Source: Maribacter caenipelagi (lineage in GTDB: Bacteria > Bacteroidota > Bacteroidia > Flavobacteriales > Flavobacteriaceae). From it: DNA of 64,000 nucleotides. A program made the translations under genes and the position numbers. Positions 55,637 through 63,287 of the stretch are shown here, in pieces; the stretch's first letter is position 1; every line of letters begins with the position of its first letter. The notes beneath the pieces are model-generated. The model worked only from the letters and a program-made list of their open reading frames with translations. It did no database searches and was not told the origin of the DNA. Location: NCBI RefSeq assembly GCF_004364175.1, contig NZ_SNZW01000018.1, forward strand, positions 62,001-126,000, given 5' to 3'.

Positions 55637-55801
55637 ACCCACCCCTAGCCCCTCCCAAGAGGGGAATGGATTGTGCCATTTATTGAGCATTTTTGATAAA
55701 ACAAATACAGTGACTCTAATAAAATCCAATCTTCAAAGCAACCAAAAAAACGCAAAAAAAAAGAAAACCTCCCCTCTCGGGAGGGGATTGATGGGTGGGT
55801 G
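55637..55801. repeat. IR element 1
   Basis: Left arm ACCCACCCCTAGCCCCTCCC (55637) with a short inner palindrome, interior with CCAATCTTCAAAGCAACC, right arm CCTCCCCTCTCGGGAGGG (55768) ending GGTGGGTG. Followed by CTACGGTGATGA. Confidence 0.85.
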
Positions 55802-55845
55802 CTACGGTGATGATGATTTTAATAAATACGCTAACTCAAATGGAT

Positions 55846-56010
55846 CCACCCCTAGCCCCTCCAAGGAGGGGAACAGTTTCTGACTTGAAACAAACTTTTT
55901 AGATAAAAGCAGACGTGGTGACTCTTAGAAATCCAATCTCCCAAAGCAACCAAAAAAAACGCAAAAAAAAAGAAAACCTCCCCTCTCGGGAGGGGATTGA
56001 GGGGTGGGTG
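55846..56010. repeat. IR element 2
   Basis: Same arms as element 1, 44 bp downstream of it; interior ATCCAATCTCCCAAAGCAAC. Confidence 0.85.
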
Positions 56011-58269: not shown

Positions 58270-58435
58270 ACCCACCCCTAGCCCCTCCCAAGAGGGTAAC
58301 AGTTAGTGACTTTTATTATACCGTTTAGACAAAATAGATGTAGTAACTCTTAAAATCTATTCTCCCAAAGCAACCTACAAACCCGCAACCAAAGACGAAA
58401 ACCTCCCCTCTCGGGAGGGGATTGAGGGGTGGGTG
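58270..58435. repeat. IR element 3
   Basis: Arms as element 1; interior includes TTTAGACAAAATAGATGTAG and CTCCCAAAGCAACC. Followed by linker GTAATGAAGTTTTCATTAAA (from 58441). Confidence 0.85.
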
Positions 58436-58477: not shown

Positions 58478-58642
58478 CCCCACCCCTAGCCCCTCCAAGG
58501 AGGGGAACAGTTTCTGACTTGAAACAAACTTTTTAGATAAACAGACGAAATAACTCTAATAAAAACCAATCTCCATAACCACCAAAAAACCCACAAACCA
58601 AACGAAAACCTCCCCTCTCGGGAGGGGATTGAGGGGTGGGTG
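58478..58642. repeat. IR element 4
   Basis: Left arm CCCCACCCCTAGCCCC, right arm ending GGGTGGGTG; followed by the same 42-bp linker as element 3. Confidence 0.85.
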
Positions 58643-58684: not shown

Positions 58685-58716
58685 ACCCACCCCTAGCCCC
58701 TCCGAGGAGGGGAGCA
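58685..58716. repeat. IR element 5, left arm only
   Basis: ACCCACCCCTAGCCCCTCC with a slightly changed inner palindrome (GAGGAGGGG). No right arm before the amidohydrolase. Confidence 0.8.
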
Positions 58717-62000: not shown

Positions 62001-62157
62001 CACCCAACCCTAGCCCCTCCCAAGAGGGGAACAGCTAGCGTCTTTAATTAAAATATATTCTAACAATAATTTTATGAAAACAGAAGTTTCAACTAACTCT
62101 AGCTTCGCAATCAATAACGTACTTCTCCCCTCTTGGGAGGGGATTGAGGGGTGGGTA
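62001..62157. repeat. IR element 6
   Basis: Left arm CACCCAACCCTAGCCCCTCC (variant), right arm CTCCCCTCTTGGGAGGGG to GGTGGGTAC. Its right end is 5 bp before the DUF559 start. Confidence 0.85.
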
Positions 62158-62162
62158 CTACG

Positions 62163-62534
62163 ATGAGAAAGATTATTCCGTATAACCCAAATTTAGTTGA
62201 ACTCGCTAGAACATTAAGAAACAACATGACCCTTGGTGAAATTGTGCTATGGAGAGAAATCAAAGGTAAAAAGCTAGGTCAAAAATTTAGTAGACAAATT
62301 CCTATCGATCAATATATAGTTGATTTTTATTGCAAAGATCTTCAGCTCGCCATAGAAGTAGATGGCAGTATTCACTTTAAAGAAGGACATGAAGAAAAAG
62401 ATAAAAAAAGGCAAGCACGCTTAGAATTTTTAGGTGTGTATGTGCTCAGGTTTTCAGATACCGATGTAAAGAATAATTTAAGCTTTGTTTTAGAAGAGAT
62501 TAAAGTAATAATTGAGAGATTAGAACTAACATGA
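62163..62534 (+). CDS. DUF559 (Vsr-like) nuclease-fold protein
   Basis: 123 aa from ATG 62163; a GTG 12 bp upstream lies in the repeat arm and is not preferred. The domain resembles very-short-patch-repair endonuclease: LRNNMTLGEIVLW, PIDQYIVDFYC, LAIEVDGSIHF, with D54, E65 and D67 as likely metal ligands, and VYVLRFSDTDV near the end. Such proteins are frequent in Bacteroidota as small orphan genes. Function unproven. Its exact fit between two IR elements is noted separately. Confidence 0.85.
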   Translation: MRKIIPYNPNLVELARTLRNNMTLGEIVLWREIKGKKLGQKFSRQIPIDQYIVDFYCKDLQLAIEVDGSIHFKEGHEEKDKKRQARLEFLGVYVLRFSDTDVKNNLSFVLEEIKVIIERLELT

Positions 62535-62685
62535 ACCCACCCCTTGCCCCTCCCAAGAGGGGAATAGATCGTTACTTTTATTGGGTATTTTAGACAAAAT
62601 AGATGTGGTGGCCCTTAACACCTATTCCCCCAAAGCAACCAAAAACGAAAACCTCCCCTCTCGGGAGGGGATTGAGGGGTGGGTG
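62535..62685. repeat. IR element 7
   Basis: Left arm ACCCACCCCTTGCCCCTCCC begins on the base after the DUF559 stop codon; right arm CCTCCCCTCTCGGGAGGGG. Followed by the 42-bp linker. Confidence 0.85.
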
Positions 62686-62727: not shown

Positions 62728-62759
62728 ACCCACCCCTAGCCCTCCCAAGAGGGGAACAG
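62728..62759. repeat. IR element 8, left arm only
   Basis: ACCCACCCCTAGCCCTCCC, one C shorter, after the 42-bp linker; no right arm follows before the next gene. Confidence 0.8.
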
Positions 62760-62841: not shown

Positions 62842-63066
62842 ATGAAAATCAATTTATTGTCTTGTGATGCCCCAAGACCAGACAGAAGAGCTATTGCCAA
62901 TTGTATTGTAGAGATATCGCCTAGCTGTAGTGCATCGCTAGCAAATGAACTTACCGATATACTTTTAGAAGGTGATGCCGTTGACATAGAATTGGATGAT
63001 AAAAATACCGGTTCCGCATTACGGGCCTTACGAAAGCTTAGTATTGACTATGAAATTATAGAATAA
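62842..63066 (+). CDS. Small protein of unknown function
   Basis: 74 aa. Starts MKINLLSCDAPRPDRR and ends ALRALRKLSIDYEIIE; CIVEISPSCSASLANEL is the middle. An alpha/beta pattern is likely, with acidic DIELDDKN. No family recognised. It lies between element 8 and element 9, and could be real or an insertion-bred frame; I lean to real because its codon use is like its neighbours. Confidence 0.5.
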   Translation: MKINLLSCDAPRPDRRAIANCIVEISPSCSASLANELTDILLEGDAVDIELDDKNTGSALRALRKLSIDYEIIE

Positions 63067-63069
63067 AAT

Positions 63070-63287
63070 ACCCACCCCTAGCCCCTCCCAAGAGGGGAAC
63101 AGCTTTTAGTTATCATTCATCTTTTTAGATTAAGAACATATATCAACACCAAATTGCGCAATGGCACCCTTTAGGGTCTGGGCGAGCGCTGGCATTATAA
63201 AAACCAATCTCCCCAACCACCAAAAAACCCACAACCAAAAACGCAATTCTCCCCTCTTGGGAGGGGATTAAGGGGTGGGTGCTACGG
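63070..63287. repeat. IR element 9, longer copy
   Basis: Left arm ACCCACCCCTAGCCCCTCCC (63070), right arm CTCCCCTCTTGGGAGGGG (63249), then GCTACGGTG. About 50 bp longer inside than the others, with a GC-richer insert (GGGTCTGGGCGAGCGCTGGC). Confidence 0.8.

Follow-up and report, generated by a model that had tools for sequence, protein, structure and literature searches.

In this study, we found that a stand-alone DUF559 nuclease gene of Maribacter caenipelagi lies between two inverted copies of a palindrome with the architecture of triplex-type repeats, in a window of 64,000 nucleotides (the whole stretch of DNA analysed). The association of DUF559 genes with such repeats, and the co-variation of the two, is well supported by sequence comparison. 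We favour, with some reserve, the reading that the gene and its two bracketing, cognate palindromes form a compact selfish unit, whose cutting and movement we infer.

Results

A DUF559 gene in the linker slot of a repeat array

The arms of the window array, nine left and seven right, lie between positions 55638 and 63280 (Table 1). No right arm was found for elements 5 and 8 at up to 7 mismatches. In tandem copies, about 44 bp separate a right arm from the following left arm; the DUF559 gene takes the place of this linker. Right arm 6 closes with GGGTGGGT, its last base being 62156, and a gap of 6 bp (ACTACG) separates it from the ATG at 62163. As a preliminary description of this DNA had stated, the gene runs directly up to left arm 7: its stop codon TGA occupies 62532-62534, and the arm starts with ACCCACCCC at 62535. 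The same description had placed the ATG 5 bp after right arm 6 and had given the linker of tandem copies as 42 bp; the adjacency and the short linker were found, but the distances were 6 bp and, for linkers 3-4 and 4-5, 44 bp. The linker figure depends on the arm end that is chosen. The palindrome CCCCTCTYGGGAGGGG has 13 copies in the M. caenipelagi genome, 11 of which lie in the 7.6-kb window array, whereas a reversed control pattern has 0. The layout of gene and arms in the window thus exceeds chance.

Short copies had been proposed to be internal deletions of complete units. The bases GCTACGGTG after right arms 1 and 9 indeed matched ACTACGATG across the DUF559 start. Among 27 linkers, which are not independent because they are related copies, the first 25 bp resembled the gene start above shuffles in 13, but the last 25 bp resembled the gene end in 4. 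These results suggest that the right-arm side is common to linkers and gene, and weakly support an internal-deletion origin of the linkers. Full internal deletion of the gene was set aside, since only the 5' side matches. One truncated DUF559 copy, comprising residues 1-20, was found in G206.

Elsewhere in the M. caenipelagi genome, eleven related hairpins, mostly about 111 bp apart, form a second array (G000:C3:513301-514477; L137 602-1778), and none of the three DUF559 matches in this genome falls there. Inside element 9 of the window, GGCACCCTTTAGGGTCTGGGCGAGCGCTGG at 63160-63200 resembles the downstream end of another kind of DUF559 element; an open gene of this type stands in the slot after a beta-lactamase gene in G209 and G231. 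A 74-aa ORF without a Pfam match (62842-63066) lies beside arrays in 10 of 20 congener regions, and DNA similar to it occurs elsewhere in some congeners without the array, e.g. G207, G216 and G219.

Table 1. Positions of the DUF559 gene and the repeat elements in the window
Feature	Position	Strand	Remark
DUF559 (YcjD/Vsr-like, PD-(D/E)XK superfamily) nuclease gene, 123 aa	62163..62534	+	PF04480, E 2e-29
Right arm, element 6: hairpin CCCCTCTTGGGAGGGG, loop, mirror block AGGGGTGGG towards gene	62125..62156	+	triplex-motif detector (L017)
Left arm, element 7 (same motif, opposite strand); touches DUF559 stop codon	62535..62564	+	
Left arm, element 6	62003..62031	+	1 mismatch
Right arm, element 7	62653..62684	+	
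Left arm, element 8; one base shorter, right arm not found	62729..62756	+	
Left arm, element 9	63071..63099	+	
Right arm, element 9, then GCTACGGTG	63249..63280	+	
Element 1	55638..55799	+	left arm 55638-55666, right arm 55769-55799, then GCTACGGTG
Element 2	55845..56009	+	left arm 55845-55873, right arm 55978-56009
Element 3	58271..58434	+	left arm 58271-58299, right arm 58403-58434
Element 4	58479..58641	+	left arm 58479-58507, right arm 58610-58641
Left arm, element 5; right arm not found	58686..58714	+	

Architecture of the arms

On the purine strand, an arm consists of a stem, a loop, the second half of the stem, about 3 nt and a block that mirrors the stem (GGGAGGGG ... GGGGTGGG, with T opposite A). 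The motif was detected with a stem of 6-12 nt and at most 1 mismatch per block, within 250 bp on each side of the gene. Scores of this detector, as well as the other-phyla and Mantel scores below, take the best-scoring motif and not the nearest one. At the window locus (L017), both sides showed the Watson-Crick stem, the mirroring third block and the purine strand rich in G/C that define BoxC/PIT/TM repeats by sequence. For the analysis of the mirror block, hairpins were picked without requiring such a block, because circularity was to be avoided. Across 68 distinct stems, the block matched its own stem with a mean of 0.682, compared to 0.589 when blocks were permuted among loci (sd 0.011; maximum of 2000 permutations, 0.627). 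The mirror block of the bracketing arms usually points towards the DUF559 gene; the nearest motif (stem of 7 or more) faced inward on both sides at 18/26 and 22/35 two-sided loci. These results indicate that the arms have the architecture of intrastrand-triplex (BoxC/PIT/TM) repeats, with triplex folding as a prediction. For the E. coli motif, triplex folding was reported in vitro, and footprinting in vivo gave no support for a stable triplex, as described in PMC4666352.

The flanks of another DUF559 clade (L057, L061, L063, L065 and L079-L082) carry a different palindrome without a mirror block. It has a purine hairpin, then TGGC- or a similar sequence and, by eye, an apparent second hairpin.

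The DUF559 product as a predicted nuclease

The window ORF scored 102 bits against PF04480 (curated cut-off 20.6), which places it in the DUF559 family. Its AF2 model had a mean pLDDT of 87.7. The best PDB matches of the predicted fold by Foldseek were 3hrl (E 7e-7) and 3r3p, the catalytic domain of I-Bth0305I (E 1e-4), the latter with a TM-score of 0.54-0.58 by query, in agreement with an EDxHD catalytic-domain fold; Vsr (1vsr) was among the weaker matches (E 0.12). Sequence-profile comparison gave 3hrl at E 3e-20 and 3r3p at E 0.02. In 42 DUF559 sequences, E65, H71 and D80 were invariant and D67 was present in >90%, the residues being read from the alignment and not from the positions of 3r3p. 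Among twelve open copies in the genus, that of the window included, the median dN/dS was 0.083 (60 usable of 66 pairs), a sign of purifying selection. These results suggest that the window DUF559 product is probably a DNA-cutting enzyme.

YcjD was already treated as a PD-(D/E)XK protein in 2005, according to PMC1189080, and a 2022 paper files a DUF559 gene under EDxHD (PMC9403480). In Caulobacter, the SOS response seen in a methyltransferase mutant has been attributed to the DUF559 protein VsrA, which the authors read as a mismatch-repair endonuclease (PMC12907096).

Longer ORFs with a DUF559 domain were also observed. Those in Winogradskyella and relatives have 441-450 aa (at 5001 in L192, L195, L197, L200, L202, L203, L211, L215, L219, L223 and L228); in L195, the one checked with Pfam, DUF559 is joined in frame to a PALP (pyridoxal-phosphate) enzyme. 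In an Allomuricauda genome (L225, 5001-5795), an in-frame fusion links DUF559 with the protein component of RNase P; L194, L226 and L229 have ORFs of similar length, the fusion being checked in L225.

Recurrence of gene and motif

We searched 199 genomes of the family and obtained 112 DUF559 matches, from which 70 short open frames (plus L025, a fusion) were taken. Eight fragment-like or weak short-frame matches were left out (two each in G013, G110 and G050:C21, one in G082 and G135:917037), and 68 loci were scored, L025 (fusion) and L085 (cut-off) being dropped. A motif lay within 250 bp of 40 of these 68 wider stand-alone genes, on both sides in 28. Among close homologues from the contig scan (ORFs <220 aa), the count was 58/62, with 38 on both sides, and the 62 loci are not independent because many are orthologous. 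All 17 longer, fused DUF559 ORFs had a motif within the same distance. As controls, the detector gave 0/59 at places 3 kb away, 0/25 at Y1-transposase loci and 5/130 in shuffled flanks. Upstream of long-ORF DUF559 genes, the motif was found in 0/20; downstream, one could be scored, with a weak match, and the other 19 stretches end inside the ORF.

The detector found no triplex motif at 28/68 wider stand-alone genes, several of which have other palindromes, so that a triplex motif at every DUF559 gene was set aside. The proposal that DUF559 belongs with the repeat family, as a plausible mobility or maintenance factor, is upheld by the arms at 58/62 close homologues. That homologues carry arms holds for most of this close set but not for the 28 wider genes without a detected motif. 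The related expectation that arms do not border unrelated genes agrees with the 25 Y1 genes and the 59 sites 3 kb off, but some genomes, e.g. G033 with its 127 exact motifs, have solo arms next to other genes.

Loci from other phyla (Cyanobacteriota, Deinococcota and Pseudomonadota) came from 43 plasmid-collection records, of which 22 were taken and 21 scored; L272, a long ORF, was dropped, and L277, L348, L349 and L351 were weak. A motif was present on at least one side in 20/21 (upstream in 14, downstream in 15), compared to 2 of 42 control stretches 600-850 bp away. These results show that the pairing of gene and motif recurs in four phyla.

Joint variation of gene and repeat subtype

The exact type-A motif was found in 16/199 family genomes: in 10 of the 11 with a DUF559 at least 70% identical to L027, versus 6 of the 188 others. 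It was not found in G011, whose DUF559 is 74% identical. Type A without the cognate gene occurs in G054, G069, G073, G119, G157 and G168, and G157 has 7 exact copies and no DUF559 match. Among the matches listed, the type-B subtype was present in 6/6 clade-B genomes versus 1/193 others. The B/C pattern occurred in 14/199 genomes, and a spacing control with one extra spacer base in 0/199. G047, G146 and G181 have type C without the cognate gene and carry only long-ORF DUF559. The highest count of the B/C search was that of G033, with 127 exact matches (20 of the 127 places listed). Exact motifs away from the locus of the gene were seen, among the matches listed, in 4/10 clade-A and 4/6 clade-B genomes; in G138 (clade A), the off-locus motif lies on another short contig. 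Co-occurrence of gene and motif is in large part the bracketing itself.

Across 77 loci with <90% protein identity, arm similarity tracked protein similarity (Mantel r 0.597, reached by 0/2000 permutations), a signal that, like the co-occurrence, is partly explicable because gene and flanks share inheritance. These results show that the repeat sequence changes together with the DUF559 protein sequence.

Movement-like history at related loci

In the genus of the window, 36 genomes were searched and 20 regions compared. DUF559 lay near the syntenic block in 15 of these, all with type-B motifs (one in G231) and in several gene orders, and five (G207, G075, G213, G216 and G219) had neither DUF559 nor motifs in the stretch. 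The gene follows a beta-lactamase-family gene in seven congener regions and stands in other positions in G227, G232, G236 and G215. G220 and G235 are without the beta-lactamase gene, and their DUF559 may hold the same slot. A 39-40% identical DUF559 occupies the first slot in G209 and G231. Array and gene follow a radical-SAM gene in 2/5 genomes of the genus of G153, and neither is there in 3/5. In G201, DUF559 is again in the linker slot, in an array of ~188-bp units. At the polA site, the orientation of DUF559 relative to both flanks is opposite between loci, e.g. in Lacinutrix (L160) and Flavivirga (L161). Two side-by-side DUF559 copies were observed at the polA/radical-SAM site in L160 (5001-6074) and L171 (5001-6377).

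In Deinococcus, DUF559 is found in different gaps of one hpa cluster, and D. proteolyticus has two overlapping genes where strain NW-56 has DUF559. The cassettes of the two are 78.6% similar over a span that begins 57 bp upstream of the gene and ends 21 bp beyond its stop; the other 65 and 99 bp of the query lie outside this span. On Sphingomonas parapaucimobilis plasmids, DUF559 was observed within gene clusters (L345 1183-1593, L348 1195-1590), between sufB and sufC and between transhydrogenase genes. By eye, no target-site duplication was evident at the Deinococcus and Sphingomonas junctions, which were compared without a base-exact empty site. Comparison of empty and filled orthologous sites revealed presence, absence and altered gene orders among related genomes; neither a target-site duplication nor a base-exact empty site was seen.

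Comparison of these sequences showed gene order around DUF559 to differ between congeners, and its orientation between genera at one orthologous site; related cassettes were shown to occupy different gaps of one Deinococcus gene cluster. Neighbours that were rearranged, rather than a gene that moved, may account for the altered order.

E. coli ycjD and BoxC

The DUF559 gene of E. coli K-12 is ycjD, and BoxC-type motifs lie on its 3' side. Its 3' end enters a degenerate motif. About 170 bp further on, the BoxC-type pattern, built on letters that we take to be the BoxC consensus, is matched in full; no motif was seen upstream of the K-12 gene. The gene is present in 3365/5426 E. coli genomes. 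In two ycjD-less genomes that were inspected, efflux genes lie beside sapF or fabI, and eefRABCD has been reported in the place of ycjD (PMC12817139). Because efflux genes or eefRABCD are found there, absence of ycjD is a replacement, and E. coli was rejected as a clean empty/filled site.

The name, loops and class of the BoxC/PIT/TM family used here are those given in PMC4666352. Holder et al. 2015 reported 23 copies in MG1655 and the motif in more than 260 genomes, with E. coli loci that carry triplex motifs more rearranged than controls (PMC4666352). Holder et al. found neither a mobility gene nor mobility activity near these repeats, and the main text of that paper gave no match for ycjD, DUF or endonuclease. 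As cited by Holder et al., earlier work found no promoter or terminator activity of triplex motifs, which disfavours a plain terminator role (PMC4666352).

Discussion

The compact selfish unit that we favour would act in the manner of a homing endonuclease or of a REP/RAYT pair, without an intron or intein or a Y1 transposase. The nuclease would recognise its cognate motif, perhaps as a folded single strand during replication, and would cut at or near it. Repair would then copy from another copy of the motif, by which the gene or a gene-less unit could spread. The same copying repair could lead to tandem arrays, inversion of the gene between arms and shuffling of genes between arrays, and solo motifs would be products or remnants of unit copying.

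The nuclease could instead be a maintenance enzyme that nicks or resolves its cognate hairpin or triplex for replication; slippage and recombination would then suffice to spread the repeats. The Vsr repair enzyme among the weaker fold matches (E 0.12), the reading of Caulobacter VsrA as a mismatch-repair endonuclease by its authors (PMC12907096) and the rearranged E. coli motif loci described in PMC4666352 are consistent with such a role, which by itself, however, does not account for the bracketing by arms or for the differing cassette places in one cluster, and motifs are kept without the cognate gene in some genomes (G157). We regard it as unlikely. An old gene and palindromes that are merely co-inherited, with arrays arising by unequal recombination and an unrelated job for the nuclease, are a further alternative: many loci are orthologous across genera, which inflates both the co-occurrence and the Mantel score, but the same mirror architecture is built from different palindromes in different lineages, the orientation and surroundings of DUF559 vary, and the motifs have no promoter or terminator activity in the account of Holder et al. 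(PMC4666352). Linkage of this kind is improbable.

Bracketing of a gene by inverted palindromes also recalls REP/RAYT loci, and the arms might be the ends of a REP-type element moved in trans by a Y1 (RAYT/TnpA-REP) transposase, with DUF559 as a passenger. Some Y1_Tnp match is present in 21/28 motif-bearing genomes, but none in the other 7/28 (among them G147, only 73% complete). The triplex motif was found at 0/25 Y1 loci and type A/B/C hairpins at 0/31, and in M. caenipelagi, Y1 matches occupy two sites, of which one is broken by a stop and the other scores 30 bits. A repeat driven by a RAYT was set aside, as Y1 loci are without such motifs, and the passenger role is very improbable.

The selfish unit shares features with several known systems. 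As in REP/RAYT REPtrons described in PMC8266576, a gene is framed by short inverted palindromes, enzyme and palindromes co-evolve, and solo copies are dispersed. Unlike in these, the enzyme would be a PD-(D/E)XK-type nuclease and not an HUH Y1 transposase, the palindrome has a mirror block, and a constant GTAG-/CGTC-type tag was not seen, the bases at the tag-stem position varying by eye (AG, AA, TG, AAAG and others). BoxC/PIT/TM repeats as described in PMC4666352 have the same purine-strand hairpin and mirroring third block, with second loops TTA and CCG, and are linked to genome instability; here, in contrast, repeat subtypes are coupled to DUF559 genes, and spacers occur in the arrays that the units form. 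The predicted catalytic-domain fold resembles that of the EDxHD/Vsr-like homing endonuclease I-Bth0305I (3r3p). Unlike I-Bth0305I, the window protein has 123 residues only, a size that leaves no large separate DNA-binding part; it lies in no intron or intein, and it would have as its target the palindrome that brackets its own unit. With the DUF559/YcjD family (PF04480), it shares sequence membership and the fold of 3hrl.

More tentatively, and perhaps with nearly even prospects, the units may form a class across phyla, in which a homing-type DUF559/YcjD nuclease has a folded triplex palindrome as both bracket and target. BoxC/PIT/TM repeats, those of K-12 (ycjD) among them, would have their missing mobility factor in such a nuclease, which would also drive array growth, gene inversion and gene shuffling there. 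We found no report linking DUF559 with these repeats in the open-licence literature, the scope of our search; subscription papers lie outside it. The DUF559 gene may be the missing partner of an E. coli repeat family without a known enzyme. With a cognate nuclease, an unexplained family of repeats would become an enzyme-substrate pair open to testing in laboratory E. coli K-12 (ycjD), and a function would suggest itself for a domain that is widespread but of unknown function.
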